DNA of 64,000 nucleotides, from assembly GCF_003362805.1 (NCBI RefSeq), contig NZ_QNQT01000001.1:806001-870000 (forward strand), in the 5' to 3' direction. The position numbers and the translations under genes are program-made. Position 1 is the first letter of the stretch. Every line of letters starts with the position of its first letter. Shown piece after piece: positions 23,366 through 57,558 of the stretch. The DNA is from Neobacillus piezotolerans (GTDB taxonomy: Bacteria; Bacillota; Bacilli; Bacillales; Cytobacillaceae). Under the pieces are notes generated by a model, which worked only from the letters and a program-made list of their open reading frames with translations, was not told where the DNA came from and did not search any database.

Positions 23366-23526
23366 TCAAAACAAAAAGCCCCTTTCATTCAGAAAGAGGC
23401 ATCGAAAACAACTAAGTTAACGACTTATCTTCCAGAATGAATCCATTCTGCAGGAAGTGGCACCGTTCCCATACTTGGTGGTTGCCGGACGTCATCGGGC
23501 CTGTCCCTCGGTCGCTCTTGATAAGT
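23366..23526 (-). ncRNA. SAM-I (S-box) riboswitch with expression-platform terminator
   Basis: On the minus strand the aptamer begins CTTATCAAGAGCGACC (23510-23525) and shows the S-box core GAGGGACAGGCCCGATGA, CCGGCAACC, then GGTGCCA-type 3' strand, closing with ATAAG of P1 near 23424-23429. An intrinsic terminator follows: GCCTCTTTCTGAATGAAAGGGGC then TTTTTG at about 23373-23400. It precedes metN by about 110 bases. SAM binding would stabilise the aptamer and let the terminator form, turning off metNIQ. Confidence 0.95.
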
Positions 23527-23729
23527 GTTTTTTGTATGAAATTAACAATACATATCATAATCCTAGGAAAAATGGATGTCAACAAGCAAATTTGAGTTTA
23601 TTATTCTGATAACGCTTACAATGTTGCTAATTAAGGAAATTATCGAAAAATATTTTTTTGGAGTTATTCGAACATTAATCGTAATGTTTTCTGTTAGGGA
23701 CCGTCTAATTAGAAAAGGGGGGCGATAGT

Positions 23730-43523: not shown

Positions 43524-44087
43524 CTACAGGTTTACATCCACCCGGATTAATGAATCCTGTTCTCCGTCAATTCCAATGTATTTTAACGTTTCCTTTGGGC
43601 TATGGTGGTTAAAAACCTCCATTAAGATTGAAATCGCGATCCCTTTTCGGTAGGCATGGTAGCCAAACGTTTTTCTAAGGGTATGCGTTCCGATTTTACC
43701 CTGGGCTCCAACTTTTTTAGCGGCTTGGTTGATAATTCGATAAGCTTGCTGCCTGGTGATCGGAAATTCGTTCTTCTTGGACTTGAACAAATAATCATCT
43801 TCCTTCAGTGTGCGCTGATGAAAATAGATTTCCAGTTCAGAGCGGATGCTGTTGTTCAAATAAAAAGCCTTTGGTTTCTCGCCTTCCGAGTCATCGATAA
43901 TCGTAAATTCCTTTAACGACTCTCCGTCCCATACGTCTTTCACCTTTAGGGAAAGCAAGTCGCTAACCCTGATTCCGGTATTAATCCCAAATACAAAAAG
44001 CAGCACATCCCGTTGTGAATGCTCCCTTAATTCATCCTTTATGGCATTGATTCGATCAATGTCTTTAATTGGGTCAACGAACTCCAC
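43524..44087 (-). CDS. Minimal tyrosine recombinase (catalytic domain only)
   Basis: 187 residues consisting of just the integrase catalytic domain. All active-site elements are present: Arg40 in NTGIRVSDLL, His135 and Arg138 in GTHTLRKTFG, His161 in NHHSPKETLKY and the nucleophile Tyr170. The N-terminal SAM-like arm found in XerC/D or phage integrases (another 100-110 residues) is missing, so this group must bind DNA differently or as a partner. I chose GTG 44087 with GGGAGGA six to seven bases upstream. No phage or transposon genes accompany it; the neighbours are a USP gene and a small membrane-protein gene. Confidence 0.85.
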   Translation of the reverse strand: MEFVDPIKDIDRINAIKDELREHSQRDVLLFVFGINTGIRVSDLLSLKVKDVWDGESLKEFTIIDDSEGEKPKAFYLNNSIRSELEIYFHQRTLKEDDYLFKSKKNEFPITRQQAYRIINQAAKKVGAQGKIGTHTLRKTFGYHAYRKGIAISILMEVFNHHSPKETLKYIGIDGEQDSLIRVDVNL

Positions 44088-44100
44088 AGGTACTCCTCCC

Positions 44101-44149
44101 AATGTTACATAAAATAATTTTATCATAAGTTAAGTTACATAACAAAATG
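44101..44149 (-). promoter_or_regulatory. Repeat-rich control element before the recombinase, copy A
   Basis: On the minus strand TATGTAACTTAACTTATGAT then AAAATTATTTTATGTAACAT; two TTATGTAAC elements in direct orientation. A similar block lies at 44648-44695. The position just upstream of the recombinase start suggests promoter or operator. Confidence 0.5.
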
Positions 44150-44695: not shown

Positions 44696-44736
44696 TTGTC
44701 TTAACAATTTAAGCTGGATAGTTTAAGGTGGTTATT

Positions 44737-44841
44737 TTGAAAATGCAGTGGCCTCGGGAGCTGTTGGAAGGGGAGTGGGAATCTTTATCGAAAGGCGATT
44801 TAACTGTGGAAAATCGTGGGGTAAAGAAAAAGGAACGGTGA
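44737..44841 (+). CDS. Possible 34-residue open reading frame
   Basis: TTG 44737 is preceded by AAGGTGG four to five bases upstream and encodes a 34-residue charged peptide opening MKMQWPRELLEGEWES and ending GVKKKER. It is short and has no recognised relatives. The good ribosome site and the promoter-like element B just upstream are the only support. It may equally be chance, or the truncated start of a larger lost gene. Confidence 0.25.
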   Translation: MKMQWPRELLEGEWESLSKGDLTVENRGVKKKER

Positions 44842-44872
44842 AGTGGGAAAACACCCCATATTTAAATCAACA

Positions 44873-44915
44873 AAAATAGACCTTCATATTACCATTCAAT
44901 TTGAAGGTCATTTTG
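44873..44915. terminator. Terminator of the IclR gene (usable both ways)
   Basis: GACCTTCA (44879-44886) pairs with TGAAGGTC (44902-44909); TATTTTTG follows on the minus strand and ATTTTGTATT on the plus strand. Confidence 0.75.
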
Positions 44916-44990
44916 TATTAGTTTTTAATGTCTGCGATCGTTTACAGAACCGTTTGAATGGTAGTTTGTCCCTTTTTTAACTCGTGAAAA

Positions 44991-45767
44991 TCACTTATTA
45001 TATCCCATCCTTTGAGAAGCTTCCTTGCCTGCATTCATTACCTTTTTAGCAATTTCCGGTACCTTATAATCCTGCATTCTTTGGATTGGACCGACAACAT
45101 TTATGGCGCAGACAACCTTCCCTGTATAATCGTGAATGGGGGCTGACACGGATCTGGTTCCTTCTGTTAATTCCTCTGTACTTATTGCGTACCCTCTGTC
45201 TCGGATTGTCTTTAGTTCTTTCCGCAACTCATCGGGATCTGTAATACTTTTGCTCGTATACGCATGCAACCCTTTTTTGATTACCTCTTCAACGAGATTG
45301 TTTTCATTGAAAGCAAGCAGCACTTTCCCTGAGCTTGTGCAGTACGAGGGGTTCTTTCTCCCAAGATGGGTAAGGATGCGAACTGGATGGCTGCATTCTT
45401 CCTTATGGATGTAGATTGTGTCAAGGCCATCGAGAATCGATAAATGAGCTGTTTCCCCTGTATCATTTACTAATTTATAGAGTAGGGGTGCCGCCTCCTT
45501 ATGGATTTCAAGGTGGTTTGTAACAATCCCCCCTAGTGTCAATACCGATAATCCAAGTTTGTACTTTCCCGTCTTATTCTCTTTTATGACAAACCCCTCA
45601 TGAGCAAGAGTTGCAAGTAAACGGCTTACCGTACTTTTTCCCAGACCAAGAGATTCTGATAGATCTTTTACTTTAAGTGTTGGTTCAAACGTGGAAAAAC
45701 TCTTGAGAATCCGAAGAGCATTACTAACAGATGAAAGAATTTGTGGATTTTCGCTTTTCTTGGACAT
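44991..45767 (-). CDS. IclR-family regulator, probable activator of the aromatic cluster
   Basis: 258 residues. The winged-helix domain (about 10-72) shows LKVKDLSESLGLGKSTVSRL as the recognition region; the effector domain (about 75-255) has the family blocks HLSILDGLDTIYIHKEE near 105, GRKNPSYCTSSGKVLLAF near 129 and STEELTEGTRSVSAPIHDYT near 200. IclR relatives such as PcaU and PobR sense aromatic acids and activate their catabolic genes. It faces the dioxygenase gene across a 434-base region holding two operator palindromes, one of them 22 bases upstream of its own start, which suggests autorepression. Start ATG follows AAGGGGGATG. Confidence 0.92.
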   Translation of the reverse strand: MSKKSENPQILSSVSNALRILKSFSTFEPTLKVKDLSESLGLGKSTVSRLLATLAHEGFVIKENKTGKYKLGLSVLTLGGIVTNHLEIHKEAAPLLYKLVNDTGETAHLSILDGLDTIYIHKEECSHPVRILTHLGRKNPSYCTSSGKVLLAFNENNLVEEVIKKGLHAYTSKSITDPDELRKELKTIRDRGYAISTEELTEGTRSVSAPIHDYTGKVVCAINVVGPIQRMQDYKVPEIAKKVMNAGKEASQRMGYNK

Positions 45768-45789
45768 TTTTCATCCCCCTTTTGCAACT

Positions 45790-45809
45790 TGTTCCATATA
45801 AAGGAACAT
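45790..45809. promoter_or_regulatory. Putative IclR operator, site 1 (regulator's own promoter)
   Basis: TGTTCCATATAAAGGAACAT. A near-perfect palindrome with arms TGTTCC and GGAACA, 22 bases before the IclR start. On the minus strand a TATAAA box lies just upstream, so binding here should block the regulator's own promoter. Confidence 0.7.
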
Positions 45810-45989
45810 CGCTATTTTATATGCTAAGTAATTTATATATACTATGTATATTCTGAATATTCAACCAACAATTTAGAGAATAAGAATTTCCTAATGAAAT
45901 CTCTTTTTTTTATCATCAAAGAGCCCGGGATAGAAACTACAAAAAAATATTTATTTAATAATTGCCATTATTTTAAATTTTTTTAATTT

Positions 45990-46009
45990 TGTTCCGTATA
46001 GAGGAATAG
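45990..46009. promoter_or_regulatory. Putative IclR operator, site 2 (praA promoter)
   Basis: TGTTCCGTATAGAGGAATAG. The shared pattern is GTTCC-R-Y-ATA-R-AGGAA. Its GTTCC starts at 45991 and a TATAAT follows at 46038, a distance of 47 bases, identical to site 3. Confidence 0.75.
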
Positions 46010-46014
46010 TTCGC

Positions 46015-46043
46015 TTTTATTGGCACTTTTACCGCCATATAAT
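46015..46043 (+). promoter_or_regulatory. Predicted praA promoter
   Basis: TTTTAT (46015-46020, weak -35) and TATAAT (46038-46043), spacing 17. A poor -35 with a perfect -10 is typical of activator-dependent promoters; the operator is centred near -50. Confidence 0.55.
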
Positions 46044-46201
46044 AGGAGCTAGTTACAATAATATAGTTCTATATGCCTAATAAGAATTTTTACAATTTAA
46101 TTATTTGAGTATGAGAAGTTACATTAAGTCTTTTTTTAAAATGTAAGCGGTTTCTATTGGGGAGTAATTTATTAAAAAAATAAATCCGGAGGTATGGAAA
46201 A

Positions 46202-47200
46202 ATGGCTTTATCAAGTCCGAACCAAAAAGAAGTAGAACTTACTGAATTGGATTTGAAATTATCGAATGTTGCTCACATTGGCCATGCATCAATCAATGTG
46301 ACAAACCTGGAAAGGTCTACATGGTTTTTCACAGAAGTTCTGGGGCTGCATGTATCCGCGGAGGAAAAAGACAAGGTTTATCTGCGCGCATGGCAGGACT
46401 GGGACCATCACACATTGATACTCAATAAAGCAGAAAAATCCGGGCTCGACCATTTTGGCTGGCGGGTTAACTCTGAAAAATCACTTTATGCATTCGAAAA
46501 AACGTTAAAGGAATCGGGAACTGATTATAAGTGGATTGAAGGAGGTACTGAACGCGGTCAAGGTGATGCAATCAAATTCTACAGCCCTGCTGGAATTCCT
46601 GTTGAGCTATATTGGGAAATGGAAAAATACTCAAACCCGCTGACAGCTTCCAAATTGCCCAGCCACCCAATGAAATACACTGGAAAAGGCGCAGCACCCC
46701 GCCGCTTTGACCATGTAAATGTGATGGTGGATGATGTTGCTCATGAACAGGAATGGTGGACGAATTTCCTTGGAATTCATCATCGCTACTATATCCAGAA
46801 TGAAATGGATGTTCGTCTTGGTTCATGGCTGAGCAAAACAAATATTGCGCATGAAATTGCGTTAATGCGCAACAGTAAACAATCAGGAGCACTCCTCCAC
46901 CATGTCGCATATTTCCTCGATTCACCAGATGAATTACTGCGTGCCCTGAATATTATGGCTGAAAATGACATCAAAATCGAATGGGGACCAGGAAAGCATG
47001 GCACAAGTGGGGCACAATTCCTGTATGCATTTGAACCATCTGGCAACCGGGTTGAACTGTGGACAGGAGGAATGCTGATTTTCGCACCCGATTGGCAGCC
47101 AATTGAGTGGCAATCTGGAACTGGACAGTTTGGGCTTGATATGTGGGGAAGCACGCCACCCGAAACTTACTTGACATATGGTACAGAAATTAAGAAATAG
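46202..47200 (+). CDS. praA: Extradiol ring-cleavage dioxygenase, probable protocatechuate 2,3-dioxygenase
   Basis: 332-residue type I extradiol dioxygenase built from two VOC domains. The iron ligands fall in the C-terminal domain: His171 in RRFDHVNV, His234 in LLHHVAYF and Glu285 in SGNRVEL; the conserved His217 (NIAHEIALM) and Tyr275 are also present. It opens the catechol ring next to the diol. The substrate is inferred from the cluster: the next gene encodes an ACMSD-fold decarboxylase, so a carboxylated catechol, most simply protocatechuate cleaved at 2,3, is expected. Alternatives are 2,3-dihydroxybenzoate or homologous acids. Strong GGAGG site; first gene of the upper unit. Confidence 0.8.
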   Translation: MALSSPNQKEVELTELDLKLSNVAHIGHASINVTNLERSTWFFTEVLGLHVSAEEKDKVYLRAWQDWDHHTLILNKAEKSGLDHFGWRVNSEKSLYAFEKTLKESGTDYKWIEGGTERGQGDAIKFYSPAGIPVELYWEMEKYSNPLTASKLPSHPMKYTGKGAAPRRFDHVNVMVDDVAHEQEWWTNFLGIHHRYYIQNEMDVRLGSWLSKTNIAHEIALMRNSKQSGALLHHVAYFLDSPDELLRALNIMAENDIKIEWGPGKHGTSGAQFLYAFEPSGNRVELWTGGMLIFAPDWQPIEWQSGTGQFGLDMWGSTPPETYLTYGTEIKK

Positions 47201-47243
47201 AATGACAATTTAGTAGACTTTAAAGAAAGGAGCATCTCAAACT

Positions 47244-48260
47244 TTGACAAGACCATTACGCGTTGATTTTCATACACATATCATTTCCGAAGATTACCCT
47301 GACCTCGCAGAAAAATATAACGATGACCGATTTCCGAAACTTGAAAAGACATGCAGCTGTGGTGCTGAAATTAAGATTCAAGGCAAAACGTTCAGGAAGA
47401 TAACCGACCAGGCATGGGATCCAGAAAAGCGGATTGAAGATATGGATAAGGAAGGTGTCGATATTCAGGTTCTGTCACCGATTCCGGTCACTTTTACATA
47501 CTGGTCCGATTCCCAGGCCGGCCTCGAGCTTGCCAAGTCACAAAATGATTTCATCGCTTCTGTCGTAAAAAAGTATCCGGACAGATTTATCGGGATGGGG
47601 ACAGTTCCACTGCAGGACATAAAACAGGCGATAGCTGAGATGGAAAGGGCAGTTCATGTCCTTGGGCTAAAAGGAATCCAGATAGGATCCAACGTAAACG
47701 GACTGAACCTGGATGACGAGTCCCTGTATCCTTTTTTCAAAGCGGCAGCCGAAATGAATGTCCCGCTTTTTGTCCACCCATGGGCAACTCTTGGAAAAGA
47801 AAGGCTTCAGCGTTTCAATACAATGTATACGGTCGGAATGCCTTCAGAAACAGCGTTGGCAGCAGGCAGCATCATTATGAGCGGGATGCTGGATAAGCTC
47901 CCGAATCTGAGGATTTGCTTTGCGCACGGAGGCGGGTCTTTGCCGTATATTCTTCCGAGAATGGATAAAGGCTGGGAAGTTTGGCCGCATACACGGAATA
48001 CAGAAAACCCTCCAAGCTTTTATGCAAAAATACTGTATTACGATTCCCTTGTATACGACCCGGACAATCTGAAATTTATGATTGAAAAATTTGGGGCAAA
48101 ACAGATTATCGCCGGATCTGATTATCCATTCCTGCTACGCGAAATTCCGGCAGGAAAAGTGATTGACCTCCATGAGGATATTTCAAAAGAGGAAGCACGT
48201 TTAATGCTTGGCCAAAATGCTTTGGATTTTCTAGGACTGAATGAATTGGTTAAAACCTGA
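47244..48260 (+). CDS. praH: ACMSD-type amidohydrolase, probable 5-carboxy-2-hydroxymuconate-6-semialdehyde decarboxylase
   Basis: 338 residues from TTG 47244 with AAAGGAG upstream. Metal and catalytic residues match the ACMSD subgroup: His10 and His12 in VDFHTHI, His178 in FVHPW, His228 in FAHGG and Asp293 in GSDYPF. Family members remove a carboxyl group from a muconate semialdehyde without an organic cofactor. Here that would convert the 2,3-cleavage product of protocatechuate to 2-hydroxymuconate semialdehyde, the substrate of the dehydrogenase at 51656. An unusual KTCSCGAEIKIQGK segment (residues 35-48) with two cysteines follows the first strand. Confidence 0.8.
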   Translation: MTRPLRVDFHTHIISEDYPDLAEKYNDDRFPKLEKTCSCGAEIKIQGKTFRKITDQAWDPEKRIEDMDKEGVDIQVLSPIPVTFTYWSDSQAGLELAKSQNDFIASVVKKYPDRFIGMGTVPLQDIKQAIAEMERAVHVLGLKGIQIGSNVNGLNLDDESLYPFFKAAAEMNVPLFVHPWATLGKERLQRFNTMYTVGMPSETALAAGSIIMSGMLDKLPNLRICFAHGGGSLPYILPRMDKGWEVWPHTRNTENPPSFYAKILYYDSLVYDPDNLKFMIEKFGAKQIIAGSDYPFLLREIPAGKVIDLHEDISKEEARLMLGQNALDFLGLNELVKT

Positions 48261-48284
48261 TCGTAAAAATGGGGGGTAGTATTA

Positions 48285-49304
48285 ATGAAGAAATTAAAAC
48301 CAATACTGGGCATGATTTTGACGTCCGCTGTACTTTTCTTAAGTGCATGTAGCGGCAGTAGTGAAACCGAAACAAAAGCTGCAGGAGAAAAAGGAAAAAC
48401 GTATGAATTCAAAATGACACATGTTACACAGACAGGCCATATCTGGCATAAATTCGCAGAGAAGTTTGCCGAAGAATTAGAAGCAAGATCGGACGGCAGA
48501 ATGAAACTTGAAATTTATCCGGCAGCTCAGCTCGGCCCCGAAGCGGATATGGTCCAGCAGCTTTCCAGTGGGTCGCTTGATTTCGCTTTAATCACGGTTC
48601 CTTATCTGAGTTCAAGATTTCCGGAGTTGGACGCATGGAATATGCCATTCCTTTTTGAGGATTTAGAAGATGTCCTGGCAGCACAGGAAACAGAACCTGC
48701 ACAGAAAATGCTTGGATTGCTCGATAGTCAGGGTCTTAAAGGGATGGATTACTTTTTTGCGGCAAATCACAACTTGCTTGTAAATGGAGATCCAATTCAA
48801 TCCATTGACGATGTAAAAGGAAGAAAAATACGTTTCGCTGGTGGAGCATCCGTTATTGATTTCTGGAAAGGGCTCGGTGCAAGCCCAATCGCAATGGGAC
48901 TGCCTGAAGTCTACAATGCAATGCAGACCGGTGTCATTGATGGGGTGTCTATCGATACAAACCCGATGTTATCGGAAAAGTTCTATGAAATAGGTAAAAC
49001 GTATGTACTGACCAATCATATGGCATTTGGGGGCATTGTCACTGCAAGTAAAACAAAATATGAAAGCATGCCGGAAGAGGATCAGAAAATTATCGATGAG
49101 GCCCTTGCAGCAGCTGTTGAATGGGGCGAAAAAGAAATCGTTGCAATTTCAGATAAAAACCTTAAAGAGCTGGAAAAATTAGTCGATGTGGTTGAACTTA
49201 AAAACAGAGAACAATTCAGTGGAGAAGCAAAGAAAATCTATGAAGAATACTCCAATAAAAGTGAATTGATTAAAGAATTTATCTCCACTGTGAAGAAGGA
49301 ATAA
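48285..49304 (+). CDS. TRAP transporter substrate-binding lipoprotein (DctP family)
   Basis: 339 residues. The signal peptide ends LFLSAC with Cys22, so the receptor is a lipoprotein, as expected in a Gram-positive cell. DctP-type segments are FKMTHVTQTGHIWHKFAEKF near 43-62, LEIYPAAQLGPEADMVQQL near 77-95 and VKGRKIRFAGGASVID near 175-190, where the arginine typically grips the carboxylate of the ligand. It should bind an aromatic acid such as protocatechuate (inference from the cluster). A strong hairpin directly follows the gene and separates it from the membrane subunits. Confidence 0.88.
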   Translation: MKKLKPILGMILTSAVLFLSACSGSSETETKAAGEKGKTYEFKMTHVTQTGHIWHKFAEKFAEELEARSDGRMKLEIYPAAQLGPEADMVQQLSSGSLDFALITVPYLSSRFPELDAWNMPFLFEDLEDVLAAQETEPAQKMLGLLDSQGLKGMDYFFAANHNLLVNGDPIQSIDDVKGRKIRFAGGASVIDFWKGLGASPIAMGLPEVYNAMQTGVIDGVSIDTNPMLSEKFYEIGKTYVLTNHMAFGGIVTASKTKYESMPEEDQKIIDEALAAAVEWGEKEIVAISDKNLKELEKLVDVVELKNREQFSGEAKKIYEEYSNKSELIKEFISTVKKE

Positions 49305-49311
49305 TGGTCAT

Positions 49312-49360
49312 AAGAGGTTGTCTCCAAACAGAAAGTATGTTCGCGCAGACAACCTCTTTT
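49312..49360 (+). terminator. Attenuator or terminator after the TRAP receptor gene
   Basis: AAGAGGTTGTCT (49312-49323) pairs perfectly with AGACAACCTCTT (49347-49358), ending in TTTT. Placed between receptor and permease genes, it would raise receptor levels over the membrane subunits. Confidence 0.85.
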
Positions 49361-49386
49361 GATATTTATGTGGAGGCTTACATACA

Positions 49387-49588
49387 ATGATCCATTCTTT
49401 AATAAAGGCATCCACCAGTATGAATCCATCGGGAAGAGCAAGTGAAGCTAGAGAAGTTGCCAAAAAATGTTGTGTTTCTTACTTCTGATGATTCTTCTTA
49501 TATGACAGGGCCTGAAGTTATTCTTGATGGAGGCTTAACCTCGGGCGGCCAGTTTATAGCAATTAAAGCCCAATTTACTATTAATTAA
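49387..49588 (+). pseudogene. Short-chain dehydrogenase remnant (C-terminal end)
   Basis: Frame one reads NPSGRASEAREVAKK up to about 49465; the next frame continues NVVFLTSDDSSYMTGPEVIL then DGGLTSGGQF and stops at 49588. Joined, these are the terminal helix and DSSYMTG..DGG block of a classical SDR, with one frameshift and no N-terminal 200 residues. It sits inside the transporter operon. It may be the relic of a dehydrogenase once part of the same pathway, or a passenger of recombination. Confidence 0.8.
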
Positions 49589-49603
49589 AAAGGGGGGATG
49601 GCA

Positions 49604-50095
49604 ATGAGAGGTATAAGCGATATTATTTTTAAAGTAGAAAAGCTAGCCGTGATCATTATAATACCTGTTATGTTGCTTGCAATGGTATTTGATATCATTT
49701 TCCGTTATTTTGTTCAGTCCCCATTGATTTGGGCACAGGAGCTTACACTTTATACATTCGTATGGTGCAGTTTCATCGGTGCCAGCATGAGTATAAAAAC
49801 GAAAGAAGCAGTTGCAGTGAACCTCTTGGTTGACAAAATTAATCCTAAATTAAGAAATGTTCTTATTGTAGCAGGATTGATTGTCTCTGCTCTATTTTCC
49901 ATTTTTATATTCTATTTATCTATCAATTGGATTACCAATCCAAACATTCTATTACAAAAGTCAATTACAACTCAAACACCCATGATTTTTATGTATATAT
50001 GCATTCCGATTAGTCTGTTATTTATGTCCATCCATTTTCTCAGCTGGTTTTTAGAATCATTACGGTTTACCAGAGCAGGGAAGGTGATTGAATGA
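49604..50095 (+). CDS. TRAP transporter small permease (DctQ family)
   Basis: 163 residues with four helices and the DctQ landmark SPLIWAQELTLYTFVWCSFI then GASMSIKTKEAVAVNLLVD. GGGGGG ends six bases before ATG 49604, so that start is preferred over the ATG two codons upstream, which touches the site. Its stop overlaps the start of the large permease by four bases (ATGA). Together with DctP and DctM it forms a sodium-driven importer. Confidence 0.88.
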   Translation: MRGISDIIFKVEKLAVIIIIPVMLLAMVFDIIFRYFVQSPLIWAQELTLYTFVWCSFIGASMSIKTKEAVAVNLLVDKINPKLRNVLIVAGLIVSALFSIFIFYLSINWITNPNILLQKSITTQTPMIFMYICIPISLLFMSIHFLSWFLESLRFTRAGKVIE

Positions 50096-51366
50096 TACTG
50101 ACAATGCTGATATTTGCAGTTGTACTTCTCATAAGAGTACCAATTGCAATAGTTTTGGGTATTTCCGGTATTGTACTGTTAGTTGTAAGCGGGAACGGAG
50201 ATATGCTGATTAATTCACCACAACGTTTGTTTTCATCACTGGAGAGCTATAGCTTACTGGCAATTCCTTTATTTATGCTTGCCGGTGAAATTATGAATAC
50301 AGGTGGAATTACCAGTCGTCTGGTCACTTTTGCACAGAAATTTGTTGGACATTATAGGGGCGGCCTAGCCTATGTAAACATTGTAGCCAATACATTTTTA
50401 GCTTCGATCATTGGCTCAGCTGCAGCACAAATTGCAATGATGACCAAAATTATGGTTCCTTCAATGGAAAAGGAAGGATATAAGCGGGAATTCGCGGCCG
50501 CTACGACAGCATCAGCGGGAATGCTCGGGCCAATCATTCCGCCAAGTATGCTTTTCATTATTTATGGGGCAACTTCGGGTACCTCCATTGGTGATATGTT
50601 TCTTGCGGGTATTCTGCCTGGAATTCTACTATCTCTAGCTTTTGTTATATTGGTTGCTTATATCGGCTATAAAGAAAAATTTCCTTCAAAGCCTAAAGCT
50701 TCGTGGGGTGAGAGAGGAATGTCACTTTACAAGATTATTCCTGCATTATTGGTTCCAGGAATATTGATTTGGGGTATTGTGACTGGTGTTTTTACTCCAA
50801 CAGAATCAGCCGGAATTGCTTGTGTAATCGCTTTGATTGTCGGATTATTCCTTTATAAAGAATTAAATATCAAAGATCTCCCTAGCATTATGGTGAATAC
50901 AGCTATTTCTACTGCAATGGTCACATTGCTTATTGCGATGGCTAATATTTTTGGCTGGGCAATGACATTTGAACGTATTCCGCAGGCAATTGCGGAATGG
51001 ATGACGACCATTTCTGATAATCCCATCATCTTTTTAATTCTTGTCAACATCTTATTATTGCTGTTGGGCATGCTTGTTGAAGGGATTGCTTTGATTATTA
51101 TCCTAACTCCGATTTTTGTTCCAATTTTACCAGCTTACGATATTGATCCAATTCATTTTGGGGTCATTATATGTTTGAATGTGGTTATCGGTATACTGAC
51201 ACCGCCAGTGGGATCCGGATTGTTTTTAGCAACATCTTTAGGAAAGGTGTCAATTGAATCTTTTGTAAAAGCGGTTTGGCCATTTGTTTTCGTATCTATA
51301 GTCGTTTTGTTACTAGTTACATTTATACCTTCGCTTACATTATGGATTCCTTCAATATCTAAATAA
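50092..51366 (+). CDS. TRAP transporter large permease (DctM family)
   Basis: 424 residues, about 12 helices. Recognised segments include AIPLFMLAGEIMNTGGITSR near 60-79, GSAAAQIAMMTKIMVPSMEK near 108-127 and LGPIIPPSMLFIIYG near 145-159, and GILTPPVGSGLFLATSLGKV near 371-390. It carries the transport path of the importer. Translation is coupled to DctQ by the four-base overlap. The unit ends at the hairpin near 51462. Confidence 0.92.
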   Translation: MILTMLIFAVVLLIRVPIAIVLGISGIVLLVVSGNGDMLINSPQRLFSSLESYSLLAIPLFMLAGEIMNTGGITSRLVTFAQKFVGHYRGGLAYVNIVANTFLASIIGSAAAQIAMMTKIMVPSMEKEGYKREFAAATTASAGMLGPIIPPSMLFIIYGATSGTSIGDMFLAGILPGILLSLAFVILVAYIGYKEKFPSKPKASWGERGMSLYKIIPALLVPGILIWGIVTGVFTPTESAGIACVIALIVGLFLYKELNIKDLPSIMVNTAISTAMVTLLIAMANIFGWAMTFERIPQAIAEWMTTISDNPIIFLILVNILLLLLGMLVEGIALIIILTPIFVPILPAYDIDPIHFGVIICLNVVIGILTPPVGSGLFLATSLGKVSIESFVKAVWPFVFVSIVVLLLVTFIPSLTLWIPSISK

Positions 51367-51461
51367 TAAAGACACCGCAGGCTTTTTACATCCCGCGATG
51401 TAGAAATAGATTGAACATAATGTTGAAAATTTTGGACGTCCTGGAAGTGACCCCATTGAAA

Positions 51462-51491
51462 AATACACCATGCGGTTCCGCATGGTGTATT
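51462..51491 (+). terminator. Terminator-like hairpin after the TRAP genes
   Basis: AATACACCATGC (51462-51473) pairs perfectly with GCATGGTGTATT (51480-51491) over loop GGTTCC; the tail AAATTCTATATTATTTTA is A/T-rich but not a pure U-run. It separates the upper unit from the praB promoter. Confidence 0.7.
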
Positions 51492-51514
51492 AAATTCTAT
51501 ATTATTTTACTATT

Positions 51515-51534
51515 CGTTCCGCATAGAGGAATTG
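51515..51534. promoter_or_regulatory. Putative IclR operator, site 3 (praB promoter)
   Basis: CGTTCCGCATAGAGGAATTG. Shares GTTCC-R-Y-ATAGAGGAAT with site 2. GTTCC starts at 51516 and TATAAT at 51563, again 47 bases. Confidence 0.75.
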
Positions 51535-51562
51535 GCGCGTTTTTAAATTCTATAAGCGAACC

Positions 51563-51568
51563 TATAAT
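51563..51568 (+). promoter_or_regulatory. Predicted -10 box of the praB unit
   Basis: A perfect TATAAT with no good -35 hexamer 16-18 bases upstream, as expected if the regulator bound at site 3 recruits RNA polymerase. Confidence 0.5.
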
Positions 51569-51655
51569 TTAAAATAAAAGATTCATATAAAACAATCACT
51601 ATATGATTCACGGAAAGTAAAAGCACTTTTAAAATCCAGAGGGAGGAATTTTTTC

Positions 51656-53119
51656 ATGCACGTTACAGGAACAGCAGCTGAAATAAAGCCAATTAATTGC
51701 AATCATTACATTAACGGTAAATATGTGGAGTCATTCAGTGGGGAAACATTTTTGAATATCAATCCTGCTACAAAGGAAGTGTTGGGAACCGTTCAGGTAG
51801 GCGGGAAAGAAGAGGTTGATCTGGCAGTAAAGGCGGCCAGAAAAGCGCTTAAAGGTGAATGGGGAAGCATGCCAACGAAAAAACGCTCCCAGATTCTCCG
51901 TAAAATCGGGGACCTGATTTTAGAAAGATTGCCAGAATTGGCCGCGCTGGAAACGCTGGACACTGGTAAACCGCTTTGGCTCTCAAAAAGTGTCGATATT
52001 GACCGAGCTGCAAATAACTTTCACTTCTTTGCGGACTATATGACTGCAATAGGAAATGAATCGTATCAGCAGGATGATATCGCAATCCATTATTCTGTTC
52101 GCAAACCTGTTGGTGTTGTAGGATTGATCAATCCTTGGAACCTTCCATTGTTGCTTTTGACATGGAAATTGGCTCCAGCACTTGCAGCAGGAAATACAGT
52201 AGTCATGAAGCCATCTGAAATAACACCAATGACAGCAACTGTTTTGGCGCAAATTTGTACAGACGCAGGAGTTCCTGAAGGTGTAGTGAATTTGGTGCAT
52301 GGTATGGGAGAAACAGGTGCAGCTATCACCTCGCATGAGGATGTGGATGCAATTGCCTTTACTGGCGAAACAGTAACCGGAAGTACTATTATGAAAGCAG
52401 CAGCTCCGACATTGAAAAAATTATCATTTGAGCTTGGCGGAAAAAATCCAAATGTTATTTTCGCTGATGCCGATCTGAAAGAGACAATTGAAACCACGTT
52501 GAAGTCAAGTTTCATCAACCAGGGTGAAGTTTGTCTCTGTGGTTCGAGAATCTATGTGGAGCGTCCTATTTACGATGAGTTTTTGGAAAGGTTCGCTTCT
52601 AAAGCGAAGGAAATGAAAGTGGGAGATCCATTTGATCCGGATACAAAGGTCGGAGCAATGGTCAGTGAAGAACATTATAACAAAGTAGTAAGCTATTTGG
52701 ATATTGCCAAAGAGGAAGGGGGAAACTTCCTGGTAGGCGGAAACACTCTCTATGAAGATAAAGGATACTATATCGAGCCAACAATTATCACTGGCCTTGG
52801 AAAAAATTCCAGGTGTGTCCGCGAAGAAATTTTTGGGCCGGTTGTAACAGTGATTCCATTTGATTCTGAAGAAGAAGTACTAGAGCAGGTAAATGATACG
52901 CATTATGGATTAAGTGCAAGTGTATGGACATCGAATGTAAAGCGGGCTGTTCGGTTCTCTGCACAAATCGAAGCAGGCATGGTATGGGTGAACACCTGGT
53001 TCCTCCGCGACTTGCGCACACCATTTGGCGGAATGAAGCACAGCGGACTTGGCCGGGAAGGCGGAGCACACAGTATGGACTTCTATACGGAACTGACGAA
53101 CGTGACACTGAAACTCTAG
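51656..53119 (+). CDS. praB: 2-hydroxymuconate semialdehyde dehydrogenase
   Basis: 487-residue NAD-dependent aldehyde dehydrogenase. Catalytic residues are Asn162 in INPWNLPL, Glu259 in FELGGKNP and Cys293 in NQGEVCLCGSRIYV; the cofactor region KPSEITPM near 185-192 is intact. Its closest subgroup is the semialdehyde dehydrogenases of meta-cleavage pathways (XylG, DmpC, AmnC). It should oxidise 2-hydroxymuconate semialdehyde to 2-hydroxymuconate (4-oxalocrotonate enol). First gene of the lower unit, with GGGAGGAA before the ATG and its own IclR-type operator. Confidence 0.88.
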   Translation: MHVTGTAAEIKPINCNHYINGKYVESFSGETFLNINPATKEVLGTVQVGGKEEVDLAVKAARKALKGEWGSMPTKKRSQILRKIGDLILERLPELAALETLDTGKPLWLSKSVDIDRAANNFHFFADYMTAIGNESYQQDDIAIHYSVRKPVGVVGLINPWNLPLLLLTWKLAPALAAGNTVVMKPSEITPMTATVLAQICTDAGVPEGVVNLVHGMGETGAAITSHEDVDAIAFTGETVTGSTIMKAAAPTLKKLSFELGGKNPNVIFADADLKETIETTLKSSFINQGEVCLCGSRIYVERPIYDEFLERFASKAKEMKVGDPFDPDTKVGAMVSEEHYNKVVSYLDIAKEEGGNFLVGGNTLYEDKGYYIEPTIITGLGKNSRCVREEIFGPVVTVIPFDSEEEVLEQVNDTHYGLSASVWTSNVKRAVRFSAQIEAGMVWVNTWFLRDLRTPFGGMKHSGLGREGGAHSMDFYTELTNVTLKL

Positions 53120-53129
53120 GAGGATGGGT

Positions 53130-53924
53130 ATGGAAACGAAACATGCTTCGAAAGTAGAACGCCATGCAAAGCATTTATTGAGTGCCTGGACGAATAGGGA
53201 GGGGGTTCAGCCGCTGTCAGCGCTGGATCCCGAGTTCTCCATCGATGAGGCATATGACGTACAGCTGTACACCATCCAGGGATATCTGGATAACGGCCAG
53301 AAAATTACTGGCAAGAAAATCGGACTTACCTCAAAAGCGATGCAGGATATGTTGGGAGTTGGCGAGCCTGATTACGGCCATTTGACTGATGATATGGAAG
53401 TGGAAAACGGCGGCGAGATTCCGTTTCAACGTGTGTTGCAGCCTAAAGTAGAAGGCGAACTTGCTTTTATTTTAAAAAACGACCTGGCCGGCCCAAACGT
53501 CACTCCACTTGATGTCCTGCTGGCTACAGATGTAATTGTGCCGGCAATTGAGATTGTTGACAGCAGGATTAAAGACTGGAAGATCACCCTTGCAGATACA
53601 GTGGCGGATAATGCTTCATCCGGGTTGTATGTACTGGGTGGCAATCCGAAGAAAATAACAGACATTGATATTAAGCAAATCGGCATGGCTCTTTATAAGA
53701 ATGGTGAATTGCAGAATACCGGGGTAGGTGCCGCCGCACTTGGCGATCCAGTGAAATGCGTGGCGTGGCTTGCAAACAAGCTAGCAAAATATAATATTGC
53801 ATTAAAAGCTGGGGAAGTAGTTTTGTCAGGTGCATTATCTGCGGCTGTCGTGGCAAAGCCTGGAGACCATTTTAGAGTTAAATTTGCTGAGCTTGGTGAA
53901 GTAAGTGTTAGTTTTACAGAATAA
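53130..53924 (+). CDS. praE: 2-hydroxypenta-2,4-dienoate hydratase
   Basis: 264 residues of the hydratase/decarboxylase family related to fumarylacetoacetate hydrolase. It matches hydratases (XylJ, MhpD) rather than decarboxylases: the block KKIGLTSKAMQDMLGV then EPDYGHLTDDM, and the acidic block VDSRIKDWKITLADTVADNA then SSGLYVLGG. Water is added to the dienoate to give 4-hydroxy-2-oxovalerate. I chose ATG 53130, since AGGAGG (53118-53123) abuts the ATG at 53124 but is six bases from 53130. It follows praB by about ten bases. Confidence 0.88.
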   Translation: METKHASKVERHAKHLLSAWTNREGVQPLSALDPEFSIDEAYDVQLYTIQGYLDNGQKITGKKIGLTSKAMQDMLGVGEPDYGHLTDDMEVENGGEIPFQRVLQPKVEGELAFILKNDLAGPNVTPLDVLLATDVIVPAIEIVDSRIKDWKITLADTVADNASSGLYVLGGNPKKITDIDIKQIGMALYKNGELQNTGVGAAALGDPVKCVAWLANKLAKYNIALKAGEVVLSGALSAAVVAKPGDHFRVKFAELGEVSVSFTE

Positions 53925-53942
53925 ATGTGAGGAGGGATGACA

Positions 53943-54827
53943 TTGGGCAAAGTGAAAGTAGGAATCATTGGAACAGGAAACATTGGCTCCGACTTAATGA
54001 TTAAACTGGCAAAATCGGACACCCTCGAATTGACCACAATGATGGGAATCGATGTTACTTCTAGAGGGATGCAGCATGCAAAGCATATCGGGCTAGAGGT
54101 TTTCGATAACGGGGTGGATGGTTTACTGGAAAATCCGGATCTTGTCGATATCGTTTTTGATGCCACAAGTGCTGGTGCACATATCCATAATGCGGAAGTG
54201 GCTAGGAAGTTAGGAAAGCAGATGATTGATTTGACTCCTGCAGCAATCGGTCCATTCATTGTGCCAACCGTTAATCTTGGGGAGCATCTTGATGCGGAAA
54301 ACGTAAATTTAATTACTTGCGGCGGTCAGGCAACGATTCCTATCATCCATGCAATCAACCAAGTAGCCCCAGTTAAGTATGCGGAAATCGTTGCTACCAT
54401 TTCAAGCAAAAGTGCCGGCCCAGGAACACGCGCGAATATTGATGAGTTTACCGAAACAACGGCAAGCGGAATTGAAAAGGTAGGCGGTGCGAAAAAAGGG
54501 AAAGCAATCATTATCCTGAACCCGGCTGAACCTCCAATTATGATGCGTGATACGGTCCAAGCAATTGTGGAAAAAGAATTCATGGATGAAGAAAAAATTA
54601 CTGCATCCATAATGGAAATGGCTGCAAGGGTACAGTCCTACGTTCCTGGATATAAAGTGCGGACAGAACCAATTATTGATGGAAATAAAGTGACCGTATT
54701 CCTGGAAGTCGAAGGAGCTGGGCATTACCTGCCGAAATATGCAGGAAACCTTGATATTATGACATCCGCTGCAGTTAAGGTTGCAGAAGAGTTTGCCAAA
54801 AATCGTATGAAAGCAGCAACACCGTAA
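53943..54827 (+). CDS. praG: Acetaldehyde dehydrogenase (acylating)
   Basis: 294 residues. The NAD fold opens [20 protein letters not shown]; catalytic Cys126 sits in [12 protein letters not shown], and the C-terminal NAD/CoA segment [20 protein letters not shown] is conserved. The enzyme turns acetaldehyde, channelled from the aldolase, into acetyl-CoA. I chose TTG 53943: AGGAGGG is seven bases upstream, whereas the ATG at 53937 directly abuts it. It forms a complex with the aldolase encoded next (family knowledge: DmpF-DmpG). Confidence 0.92.
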
Positions 54828-54848
54828 GAGGGAGGGAGGAGGAGAATC

Positions 54849-55862
54849 ATGCCTGATATAAAAATTACTGAAGTTGCTTTGAGAGATGGCAGCCATGCAA
54901 TCAATCATCAGTACACGGTGGAACAGGTTACACAGATAGCGAGAGCTTTGAATGAAGCGCGAGTTCCATACATCGAAGTTACTCATGGAGATGGCCTTGG
55001 GGGATCAACCCTGCAATACGGTTTATCAAAAACAGATGAACTGAAATTAATTGAAGCAGCTGTTAACGTTGCAGATTTTTCAAAAATTTCGGTCCTATTA
55101 CTTCCTGGAATCGGAACAATTAAGGACCTGAAAGAAGCACACAAAATCGGAGCGAAAATGGTTCGTATCGCTACACACGTCACTGAGGCAGATGTTTCCA
55201 AACAGCACATTGTGACAGCAAAAGAATTAGGGATGGAAACAGTCGGCTTCCTGATGATGAGCCATATGGCGCCAGTTGAGAAACTGGTGGAACAGGCGAA
55301 ATTGATGGAAAGCTATGGAGCGGATTCTGTTTATGTTGTGGATTCTGCGGGTGCATTGCTTCCGAATCAAGTGAGCGAACGAATCAAAGCGTTGTGTTCT
55401 GAACTTAACGGAAATGTCGGATTCCATGCACATAATAATCTGTCGCTCGCTATGGGAAACACTCTTGCAGCCATTGAGCAGGGCGCGACCAGGATTGATG
55501 GAAGCATCCGCTGCCTTGGAGCAGGCGCGGGTAACACGCAGACAGAGGTGCTTGTGGCGGTGCTTGAAAAAATGGGAATCGACACAGGTATTGATCTTTA
55601 TAAGATGATGGATATCGCGGAATACATCGTTGCCCCCATCTTGCCAAAACCGCAGGAAATAACAAAGGACGGTTTAACATTAGGTTATGCAGGAGTTTAT
55701 TCGAGCTTCTTGTTGCACGCCGAACGTGCGGCGAAGCGGTTCAATGTGGATTCCCGTGATATTTTGATCGAACTCGGCAAACGTGAAATCGTCGGGGGCC
55801 AGGAAGATATGATTATCGATGTCGCTGCCGAGATGGCGAAGAAAAATAAAGCGGTAGTCTAA
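54849..55862 (+). CDS. praF: 4-hydroxy-2-oxovalerate aldolase
   Basis: 337 residues. The catalytic opening VALRDGSHAINHQYT puts Arg12, Asp13 and His16 where DmpG has Arg17, Asp18 and His21; metal ligands His193 and His195 lie in GFHAHNN. A C-terminal communication domain follows. It splits 4-hydroxy-2-oxovalerate to pyruvate and acetaldehyde, passing the latter through a tunnel to PraG. A GGGAGGGAGGAGGAG tract supplies the ribosome site, 21 bases after praG. Confidence 0.93.
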   Translation: MPDIKITEVALRDGSHAINHQYTVEQVTQIARALNEARVPYIEVTHGDGLGGSTLQYGLSKTDELKLIEAAVNVADFSKISVLLLPGIGTIKDLKEAHKIGAKMVRIATHVTEADVSKQHIVTAKELGMETVGFLMMSHMAPVEKLVEQAKLMESYGADSVYVVDSAGALLPNQVSERIKALCSELNGNVGFHAHNNLSLAMGNTLAAIEQGATRIDGSIRCLGAGAGNTQTEVLVAVLEKMGIDTGIDLYKMMDIAEYIVAPILPKPQEITKDGLTLGYAGVYSSFLLHAERAAKRFNVDSRDILIELGKREIVGGQEDMIIDVAAEMAKKNKAVV

Positions 55863-55894
55863 TATAGAATCCAACATGTATCAGGAGGGAGAAA

Positions 55895-56686
55895 ATGGAT
55901 AAGGAAACGGTTAAAGAACTTGCTACTTATTTACATAATGCCGAAAAAGAACATCGTGAAATCATTAAAATCACAGCAGAATTGTACCCGGATCTTTCCA
56001 TCGAAGATGCTTATTTGGTCCAGGAGGAATTAGTTAGGCAAAAGATTGAAGAAGGAAGAAAAGTCATTGGGCCGAAAATGGGAATCACCAGTGAAGCGAA
56101 AATGAAGCAGATGAATGTGAAGGATCCGATTTACGGGTATGTTTTCGACTACATGGTCGTGAATGAAGGGGAATCCATTTCTCTGAATGATTACATCCAT
56201 CCAAAAGTGGAACCAGAAATCGGATTTATTTTATCACAGGATTTGCAAGGACCGGGCGTGACAGCTCTTGATGTTATGCGTGTTACTGAATATGTTTTTC
56301 CGGCGATTGAAATCATAGACAGCCGCTACGAAAACTTCAACTTCACATTGCCTGACGTCATTGCAGATAACACCTCCGCGGCTGGAGCGGTATACGGAAC
56401 AAGTTTAAAGCGCCCGGACGCGCTTGAGCTCGATGTCGTAGGCGTGACGTTGTCCATCAATGGTGAAATCCAGGCACTCGGAGCTGGCGCAGCAGTGCTG
56501 GGACATCCAGCAAATTCAGTTGCAAGACTGGCAAACATGCTGAGCAAAAAAGGGGAAAAAGTCAAGGCTGGCCAGCCAATCTTGACTGGCGGCCTCACAG
56601 AAGCGGTACGTTTAACACCTGGAGACTATGTAAGTGCCAAATTTGGAGGCCTTGGGGATATATCGTTCTTTGTAAAAAAAAGCTAG
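55895..56686 (+). CDS. praD: 2-oxo-3-hexenedioate (4-oxalocrotonate) decarboxylase
   Basis: 263 residues, a paralogue of the hydratase at 53130 but with decarboxylase-type blocks: GPKMGITSEAKMKQMNVKDP then IYGYVFDY, the segment IIDSRYENFNFTLPDVIADN and GAGAAVLGHPANSVARLANM. These match XylI/DmpH rather than XylJ. It removes carbon dioxide from 2-oxo-3-hexenedioate to give the dienoate for PraE; the two usually form a complex. AGGAGGGAG precedes the ATG. Confidence 0.9.
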   Translation: MDKETVKELATYLHNAEKEHREIIKITAELYPDLSIEDAYLVQEELVRQKIEEGRKVIGPKMGITSEAKMKQMNVKDPIYGYVFDYMVVNEGESISLNDYIHPKVEPEIGFILSQDLQGPGVTALDVMRVTEYVFPAIEIIDSRYENFNFTLPDVIADNTSAAGAVYGTSLKRPDALELDVVGVTLSINGEIQALGAGAAVLGHPANSVARLANMLSKKGEKVKAGQPILTGGLTEAVRLTPGDYVSAKFGGLGDISFFVKKS

Positions 56687-56716
56687 CATGAGCCTTTAAA
56701 AAGAGGAGTGATTCAA

Positions 56717-56908
56717 TTGCCACTGGTCAATATTCAAATCATGGAAGGCAGATCCCGGGAAACGATCAATGACTTGATGAAAAATGTGACAAACATTATC
56801 AGCGAGACGTTGAATGCCCCCAAGGAAAATATCCGGGTTATTGTCACAGAAGTACCAAAAACCCATTGGGCGATTGGCGGTACAAGTGCGAAGGATTTGG
56901 GAAGATAA
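56717..56908 (+). CDS. praC: 4-oxalocrotonate tautomerase
   Basis: 63 residues including Met. The start must be TTG 56717: the next codon encodes Pro, the catalytic N-terminal residue exposed after Met removal, and AGGAG lies eight bases upstream; the GTG at 56708 would bury it. Counting from Pro1, Arg11 (MEGRS) and Arg39 (ENIRV) sit exactly as in the classic enzyme; the usual Phe50 is Trp. It ketonises 2-hydroxymuconate to 2-oxo-3-hexenedioate for PraD. Last gene of the lower unit. Confidence 0.92.
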   Translation: MPLVNIQIMEGRSRETINDLMKNVTNIISETLNAPKENIRVIVTEVPKTHWAIGGTSAKDLGR

Positions 56909-57021
56909 AGTGATGAAGGTCTAACTCTCATGCAGCAGAATAGATCAAAAAGTACATCAAAAGGTGAGCTTGACCCTTCTCTTGCAGTAAAGCGACCTTA
57001 AAATAAACCGCCCAAACCATC

Positions 57022-57052
57022 TTGACCTGTGAAATGACAATGCTAGTATAAT
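57022..57052 (+). promoter_or_regulatory. Promoter-like pair after the tautomerase gene
   Basis: TTGACC (57022-57027) and TATAAT (57047-57052), spacing 19. No gene with a start follows before the terminator at 57102, so it would yield only a short RNA of roughly 85 bases. Confidence 0.4.
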
Positions 57053-57101
57053 CAACACTTATAAATTAGGTGAGGTACTGAAAGAAAAAGTGAAAAATAA
57101 A

Positions 57102-57142
57102 AAGGCATTTGGGAATAGAAGCATTCCAAATGCCTTTTGTCG
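57102..57142 (+). terminator. Terminator of the lower aromatic unit
   Basis: AAGGCATTTGGGAAT pairs with ATTCCAAATGCCTT (one bulged G) over loop AGAAGC, then TTTTG. The likely end of the pra genes and of any short RNA from 57060. Confidence 0.88.
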
Positions 57143-57151
57143 ACAATCTGA

Positions 57152-57195: not shown

Positions 57196-57558
57196 TTATT
57201 GTGGTGTAGCTCCTTTATATACGCCATTAATAAAGACATGGTATTCAATTGTTCCGTCCGCTTTTACAAACGGAATCCCAATCATCACTAATCCATCGAA
57301 AGGATTTATTACCTCAATTGAATGGGCTCCGTTCCAGCTGTAACCTTTTTTCCACAGGTCGGCTTTAACATCCTTGAAAACCTGGCTGCTCAGCAGGCCC
57401 GCTACATTAACATTTCTCTCCGCTCCAGAAATAGGTACCCAGGAGTGGCAATCACATGGTTCTTCCTCAGCCTTAGCCGCATTCCCTGGTAAAGCAAACA
57501 CTCCAAATGCGAGAGCCCCGCTAAATAAAACAGACAGCAACTTTTTCTTCAAGTTCAT
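57196..57558 (-). CDS. Small secreted protein of unknown function
   Basis: 120 residues: a signal peptide MNLKKKLLSVLFSGALAFGV continuing to about residue 30 (AKA), then a mature part with a CDCHSW motif, a helix region GLLSSQVFKDVKADLWKKGY and a beta region ending FVKADGTIEYHVFINGVYKG. It reminds me of the N-terminal pro-region of halocin-C8-like bacteriocin precursors in Firmicutes, which carry an N-K-I-V-type helix and a VFING end, but no bacteriocin tail follows here. That resemblance is recalled, not tested. GGGAGG precedes the ATG. Confidence 0.6.
   Translation of the reverse strand: MNLKKKLLSVLFSGALAFGVFALPGNAAKAEEEPCDCHSWVPISGAERNVNVAGLLSSQVFKDVKADLWKKGYSWNGAHSIEVINPFDGLVMIGIPFVKADGTIEYHVFINGVYKGATPQ

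Follow-up and report, generated by a model that had tools for sequence, protein, structure and literature searches.

Two described systems are close to the gene cluster reported here. The pra genes of Paenibacillus sp. JJ-1b, for protocatechuate 2,3-cleavage, are given in the order praRABEGFDCHI in a strain table (PMC12455638), and Bacillus licheniformis TAB7 is listed with praABCDEHI, without F and G (PMC7022639). The opa genes of Pseudomonas sp. PTH10 take o-phthalate to 2,3-dihydroxybenzoate, and their dioxygenase and ACMSD-type decarboxylase have been assayed (PMC6362003); according to a 2026 review, PTH10 is the only organism for which the phthalate 2,3-dioxygenation route has been described (PMC13040137). 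We analyzed a 64,000-nucleotide stretch of Neobacillus piezotolerans DNA (the window; contig NZ_QNQT01000001.1, positions 806,001 to 870,000) which carries, at window positions 44991..56908, a cluster of 12 genes that the first-pass annotation had read as a complete pra-type protocatechuate 2,3-cleavage cluster with its own TRAP transporter. Our best explanation, to which we assign a probability of roughly 0.68, is an import-fed operon for 2,3-dihydroxybenzoate 3,4-cleavage, a meta-cleavage, on a pra-type trunk; 2,3-dihydroxybenzoate is favored over protocatechuate because the dioxygenase A and the decarboxylase H are not of the kinds found in the protocatechuate pathway. The features of the cluster are as follows, with bit scores set against curated cut-offs where these apply.

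44991..45767, minus strand: iclR, IclR-family regulator divergent from the operon (PF01614, 160.6 bits; PF09339)
45791..45806, plus strand: putative IclR operator 1, beside the iclR start
45991..46006, plus strand: putative IclR operator 2, TATAAT 31 nucleotides downstream, ahead of dioxygenase gene A
46202..47200, plus strand: A, type I (VOC) extradiol dioxygenase (PF00903), proposed 2,3-dihydroxybenzoate 3,4-dioxygenase
47244..48260, plus strand: H, ACMSD-fold decarboxylase (Amidohydro_2, PF04909), both head-carboxylate arginines kept
48285..49304, plus strand: TRAP solute-binding protein DctP (PF03480, 208 bits)
49378..49582, plus strand: short-chain dehydrogenase remnant, intact between TRAP P and Q at loci L006 and L007
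49598..50095, plus strand: TRAP small permease DctQ (PF04290)
50092..51366, plus strand: TRAP large permease DctM (PF06808, TIGR00786)
51516..51531, plus strand: putative IclR operator 3, TATAAT 31 nucleotides downstream, ahead of gene B
51656..53119, plus strand: B, 2-hydroxymuconate semialdehyde dehydrogenase of the ALDH family (best NCBIfam model TIGR03216, 640 bits, cut-off 693 not reached)
53124..53924, plus strand: E, 2-oxopent-4-enoate hydratase (best NCBIfam model TIGR03220, DmpE, 312 bits, cut-off 409 not reached)
53937..54827, plus strand: G, acetaldehyde dehydrogenase, acylating (TIGR03215, 455 bits, above 282)
54849..55862, plus strand: F, 4-hydroxy-2-oxovalerate aldolase (TIGR03217, 537 bits, above 286)
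55895..56686, plus strand: D, 4-oxalocrotonate decarboxylase (best NCBIfam model TIGR03218, DmpH, 309 bits, cut-off 351 not reached)
56717..56908, plus strand: C, 4-oxalocrotonate tautomerase, TTG start (PRK01964, 87.8 bits, above 86; PRK02220, 68 bits, above 55)

The operon itself is confirmed. Reading from the divergent iclR through A, H, TRAP P-Q-M, B, E, G, F, D and C, every open reading frame is intact, and all the genes claimed earlier are present at their coordinates with families that agree with the first-pass annotation. The tautomerase is there too, but its start had been set at GTG 56708; from the sequence TTG 56717 is the most likely start, because proline then falls at position 1. 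The TRAP set of DctP, DctQ and DctM is complete. A occurs once in the genome (G000), which comprises 4.53 Mb in 36 contigs and is 99.98% complete.

The decarboxylase H keeps the ACMSD metal ligands and H228. In ACMSD two arginines pair with the two neighboring carboxylates of the substrate head, as described from a malonate complex and docking (PMC11650718). We aligned 18 window-type H rows (17 distinct loci, L138 repeating L004) and 15 pra-type rows, all of them tblastn matches of >280 aa and >42% identity, together with human and Pseudomonas ACMSD. At the position of human R47 (R51 in window H) arginine is present in 18/18 window-type rows and phenylalanine in 15/15 pra-type rows, and at that of human R235 (R239) every window-type and pra-type row has arginine. 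R47 is also kept by all four further H relatives, which were taken from among the best 25 matches in 515 plasmid records. A maximum-likelihood tree places window-type H, the plasmid relatives and both ACMSDs on one side of a 100/100 split and pra-type H on the other; window H is 39.5% identical to human ACMSD, 34.6% to Pseudomonas ACMSD and on average 30% to the pra-type rows. Cleavage of 2,3-dihydroxybenzoate at the 3,4 bond yields a product with the head of the ACMSD substrate, OH replacing NH2, whereas 2,3-cleavage of protocatechuate leaves the carboxylates at C1 and C5, so that its product has no ACMSD-type head. By its residues H fits a predicted ACMSD-type decarboxylase able to hold two neighboring carboxylates, and Arg or Phe at ACMSD position 47 offers a one-residue marker separating two decarboxylase types in genomes.

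The window order B-E-G-F-D-C is that of the JJ-1b trunk, and what occupies slot A at such trunks was read from other loci. Among 398 genomes sampled from the class, 32 were found at E <= 1e-40 to have a LigB-type gene resembling that beside PobA in Bacillus sp. OK048, and 18 LigB stretches were mapped, from 13 of those 32, three named relatives, and L072 and L076. The order LigB-B-E-G-F-D-C-praH, which is the JJ-1b order, was present in seven (L128, L131, L132, L135, L139, L072 and L076), with PobA after praH in L128 and L131. In another seven (L124, L126, L129, L133, L134, L136 and L137) LigB is found at the trunk's C end and praH, on the opposite strand, at its B end. L138, from Bacillus sp. 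OK048, lacks G and F and reads B-E-D-C-LigB; in L127 and L130 the trunk is present but no praH match falls within the stretch; and L125 has the LigB gene only. PobA matches are present in 10/18 of these stretches. The reported length of praA is 881 bp (PMC13254512), against 999 bp for gene A, and the gene set of TAB7 occurs at L004. Because loci with the JJ-1b gene order have LigB in slot A, and the praA length and the TAB7 gene set agree, PraA very probably belongs to the LigB family, and A is very probably not its ortholog.

The pra label for A and H was rejected on Arg47, the 100/100 tree split and LigB in slot A. Of the complete pra-type cluster first proposed, the back half stands by its JJ-1b order, but a pra-type front is not supported, slot A being LigB in the seven loci with the JJ-1b order and the pra-type decarboxylases lacking Arg47; on the gene orders and alignments compared, A and H make up a front end different from the PraA-PraH one that the same IclR/B-E-G-F-D-C trunk has in protocatechuate-type relatives. 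The IclR control had been called new, which did not hold up: IclR genes 45-60% identical to that of the window lie in 11/18 LigB stretches (L138 excluded, as its IclR belongs to a window-type pair). At seven related loci the IclR genes are 73-88% identical to the window's.

The dioxygenase A has all the iron ligands it was credited with: H171, H234 and E285 align with the XylE metal ligands H153, H214 and E265, and H217, H266 and Y275 with the catalytic residues H199, H246 and Y255. In a tree of VOC rows, A groups with its Actinomycetota kin at 100/100, separate from the 29 other rows. Residues that set A apart from those rows in the alignment, on which no argument rests, are for example H193, H194, Y196, W261 and W287. 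Among the substrates that AromaDeg names for the VOC superfamily, in the text cited, 2,3-dihydroxybenzoate is present and protocatechuate is not (PMC4250580). A has 332 aa, and a length of 285 aa is given for OpaC (PMC6362003).

Window-type A was found in 18 copies from 16 Bacillota genomes, and H follows it directly in 17; the exception, L003, has a transposase-like open reading frame (by eye) after A and then the contig end. The copies with 85-100% identity (the window, L002-L007 and L016) have an oxygenase beside A in 0/8, TRAP genes in 5/8 and a Liv-type ABC set, judged by the binding protein alone (PF13458), in 3/8. Among the copies with 62-69% identity a Rieske oxygenase adjoins 9/10, all but L008, and six of those nine also have a short-chain dehydrogenase in the stretch; a ring-hydroxylating oxygenase thus lies beside 9/18 copies overall. 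As one copy of the second set, L049, has TRAP genes as well, these lie near 6/18 copies, so the TRAP importer, earlier called new, is new only in part; TRAP genes are also found in opa and in a Pontibrevibacter cluster. By analogy, the oxygenase-linked A-H relatives resemble opa of PTH10; their Rieske oxygenase scores 299 bits against the benzoate dioxygenase model, whose cut-off is 781. On plasmids of Mycobacterium, Rhodococcus and Pontibrevibacter, oxygenases 48-50% identical to it adjoin H genes that keep R47. The Pontibrevibacter cluster has IclR genes too, the Mycobacterium and Rhodococcus plasmids carry a gene annotated 'extradiol ring-cleavage dioxygenase' for which blastp matched neither A nor the LigB reference, and a Rhizobium plasmid has a VOC gene (23% identical to A) and a flavin hydroxylase in place of the oxygenase.

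Two genomes hold two A-H pairs each, Lentibacillus persicus (L006 and L140) and Oceanobacillus polygoni (L007 and L141); the L006 and L007 pairs are TRAP-linked and 85-86% identical to window A, and the L140 and L141 pairs are oxygenase-linked and 63-64% identical. Three Rubrobacteraceae loci (L013, L014 and L015) have A homologs (62%) without H; beside these lie a gene of the benzoate-CoA-ligase family and one of the class II aldolase family, the latter bearing a weak resemblance to dihydroxyphthalate decarboxylase (60 bits against a cut-off of 200).

The alternative that survives best is a protocatechuate 2,3-cleavage cluster in which PraA is replaced by the VOC dioxygenase and PraH by the ACMSD-type decarboxylase. 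We consider it unlikely, though it accounts for the trunk order and the IclR neighbor, both as in pra-type loci, and decarboxylation of the 5-carboxy isomer would yield the same semialdehyde. It has to accommodate an H that keeps the arginine all pra-type rows lack, and also the distribution of LigB and PobA, for which 26 genomes were searched. LigB is complete or nearly so in five of them (G325, G030, G398, G399 and G400), each with PobA above 513 bits. In G398, G399 and G400, three of the 16 Bacillota genomes with window-type A, LigB and PobA reside together with A, and the other 13 have no PobA match above 72 bits. Searches of the whole of G000 found neither LigB (E 1e-20) nor a Rieske oxygenase (E 1e-25) nor PobA (TIGR02360, E 0.001), so the earlier remark that the window holds no protocatechuate-forming hydroxylase extends to the genome. 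A LigB-type fragment with a stop codon was also seen in a genome having window-type A-H (G404:C12:175910-176092).

Several observations weigh against the 2,3-dihydroxybenzoate assignment. Outside the Bacillota the LigB/PobA co-residence rule is weakened, because three Actinomycetota genomes (G409-G411) have A homologs and PobA above 523 bits with no LigB, a point in favor of protocatechuate. The LigB identity of PraA was judged by gene order. VOC genes 29-32% identical to A adjoin three LigB pra-type clusters (L072, L076 and L134), so that a neighbor of this kind is not telling by itself; in the A tree the genes from L072 and L076 group with the other VOC rows, outside the A clade. The Pontibrevibacter VOC gene beside an R47-keeping H is just 25% identical to A. 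The tree of H was built without an outside root and contains several long branches. R47 may simply be an ancestral residue, and window-type rows have tyrosine in place of human W191, which is a further carboxylate contact. The likeness of the window cluster to opa was drawn from gene content and published descriptions (PMC6362003).

A catechol 2,3-dioxygenase pathway, with H a side activity or acting on some other carboxylated intermediate, is improbable. The best NCBIfam model of A is indeed that of catechol 2,3-dioxygenase (TIGR03211), and L055 has a true catechol 2,3-dioxygenase (353 bits, above 320.2) on the same IclR and B-E-G-F-D-C trunk with no H beside it; A, however, reaches 303 bits, under the curated cut-off of 320.2, groups apart from the other VOC rows and is followed directly by H in nearly every copy. 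Very improbable is an aminophenol-type route of 3-hydroxyanthranilate cleavage followed by true ACMSD activity, which would suit ACMSDs being the top matches of H among solved structures (279 bits), but none of the 12 genes in the cluster encodes a cupin dioxygenase or a deaminase, the cluster does have a 4-oxalocrotonate tautomerase, and the A relatives are paired with a Rieske oxygenase and often a dehydrogenase, which is a route to catechols. The gene set supports the hydroxy-intermediate route first suggested, with extradiol meta-cleavage, decarboxylation and the 4-oxalocrotonate branch complete.

In the proposed 2,3-dihydroxybenzoate pathway the TRAP transporter would import the aromatic acid, A would cleave the 3,4 bond of 2,3-dihydroxybenzoate to give 3-carboxy-2-hydroxymuconate-6-semialdehyde, and H, acting as ACMSD acts on the 2-amino analogue, would remove the 3-carboxylate to give 2-hydroxymuconate semialdehyde. 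The latter would be oxidized by B, tautomerized by C and decarboxylated by D to 2-hydroxypenta-2,4-dienoate, which E, F and G would convert to pyruvate and acetyl-CoA; the activities of B, C, D, E, F and G are those of the established meta-cleavage pathway, the families being assigned by sequence. 2,3-dihydroxybenzoate is the catechol unit of many siderophores and also an intermediate of one o-phthalate route. A home-made siderophore as its source was rejected, because no 2,3-dihydroxybenzoate-AMP ligase in G000 passes the cut-off (best 249.5 against 723.55). No Bacillota precedent for a 2,3-dihydroxybenzoate route was found in the open-licence literature, where phrase matching of comma-bearing names was partly ineffective, and the portion of text cited for Bacillus sp. 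M1, which grows on phthalate and protocatechuate, gives no such gene cluster (PMC12451004).

Comparison of the iclR-A and iclR-B intergenic regions gave the operator pattern GTTCCNYATANNGGAA, which has three sites in the window, with one mismatch allowed (0.10 expected), two between iclR and A and one ahead of B. The same three are the only sites in the genome, and a reversed control gave none. Presence at these intergenic regions is partly built in, because the pattern was drawn there, but its absence elsewhere is not. The sites ahead of both operons, 31 nucleotides from TATAAT, are a new observation. This spacing recurs in L002, L003, L005, L016 (two sites, the third at 30 nucleotides) and L055; before A it is the same in L002, L003 and L016, and before B in L016. 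A loosened pattern adds L006, L011 and the second L055 site, and eight other pattern matches at these loci do not have the spacing. Operator 1, beside iclR, has TATACT at 31 nucleotides, which may be chance, the stretch being AT-rich. Scanning of ten pra-type stretches (L124, L126, L128, L129, L131-L134, L136 and L137) gave sites before B in L133 and L134, with no TATAAT at the 31-nucleotide spacing, one site about 2 kb upstream of LigB in L131, and no sites in the other seven. At L055 operator-like sites precede both the catechol 2,3-dioxygenase gene and the trunk. Generic promoter and terminator scans were at chance (27 against 30.6 expected, and 9 against 11.5 expected). We infer IclR binding at GTTCCNYATANNGGAA and the transcript limits from the sequence: one IclR protein, via the three copies, would control two promoters, for A-H-TRAP and for B-E-G-F-D-C. 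A putative operator just upstream of the promoter would suit activation, whereas the JJ-1b PraR, which we take to be of IclR type, is presumably a repressor.

A wider idea, which we put forward tentatively and hold to be somewhat less probable than its opposite, is that a single B-E-G-F-D-C trunk under IclR control accepts, like a socket, different ring-cleaving front ends in exchange for one another. As the same operator occurs with the catechol type (L055), the window type and at least two pra-type loci (L133 and L134), the regulator would on this idea sense a shared downstream metabolite and not the ring substrate. The front ends would be for catechol (VOC alone), protocatechuate (LigB and a Phe47 decarboxylase) and 2,3-dihydroxybenzoate (VOC and an Arg47 decarboxylase), and the window version would be an acquired, TRAP-fed scavenger of external 2,3-dihydroxybenzoate. 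The defined operator is a handle for testing what the shared regulator senses.

A was found in none of 80 sampled relatives at E <= 1e-80, although one genome of the same order, G371, has it. Five of the seven same-genus genomes found were examined (L154-L158), and in all five about 1 to 6 kb separates the conserved flanks (near 44.2-44.7 and 57.2 kb in the window), and the 12.4 kb that the window has between them (44711-57150) finds no match, which is a further new observation. This points to a single block that was gained here or lost in the others. A recombinase-like gene at 43524-44126 was considered as the mover and rejected, because matching DNA also occurs in same-genus genomes without the cluster.

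The short-chain dehydrogenase remnant matches the L007 gene by tblastn with 63% identity over 43 aa and 52% over 29 aa (E 3.4e-17), and a weak trace (29 aa) of a second such gene lies downstream of TRAP M at about 51380-51463. Beside the cluster, 57196-57558 (minus strand) encodes a small protein with a signal-like N-terminus by eye, its DNA being matched in same-genus genomes, and elsewhere in the window 23422-23527 (minus strand) is a SAM riboswitch (RF00162, 85.5 bits).

If the 2,3-dihydroxybenzoate assignment is true, a cluster that would be named for protocatechuate degradation on gene order alone in fact degrades 2,3-dihydroxybenzoate. With pra of JJ-1b it shares the trunk order, the hydroxymuconate semialdehyde trunk itself, an ACMSD-fold decarboxylase and an adjacent regulator, but its dioxygenase is VOC where the gene-order equivalents of pra have LigB, its decarboxylase is of another clade (judged by pra-type relatives), it has no 4-hydroxybenzoate hydroxylase, TRAP genes are inserted and H comes directly after A. 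A is, like catechol 2,3-dioxygenase (XylE/TIGR03211), a two-domain VOC enzyme with the same metal ligands and catalytic residues, and differs in its sub-cut-off score, separate clade and decarboxylase partner. H has in common with ACMSD of the kynurenine pathway the fold, the metal ligands, both carboxylate arginines and an identity of 39.5% to the human enzyme, but its expected substrate has OH and not NH2, and the window cluster is without 3-hydroxyanthranilate dioxygenase and deaminase. With opa of PTH10, as described in the text cited, the window cluster shares an extradiol dioxygenase, an ACMSD-type decarboxylase, a semialdehyde dehydrogenase, the 4-oxalocrotonate branch and TRAP-type genes; the phthalate dioxygenase, hydroxymuconate semialdehyde hydrolase and TAXI-type TRAP of opa have no counterpart in the window cluster, which for its part has an IclR regulator where that description found no regulator gene (PMC6362003).

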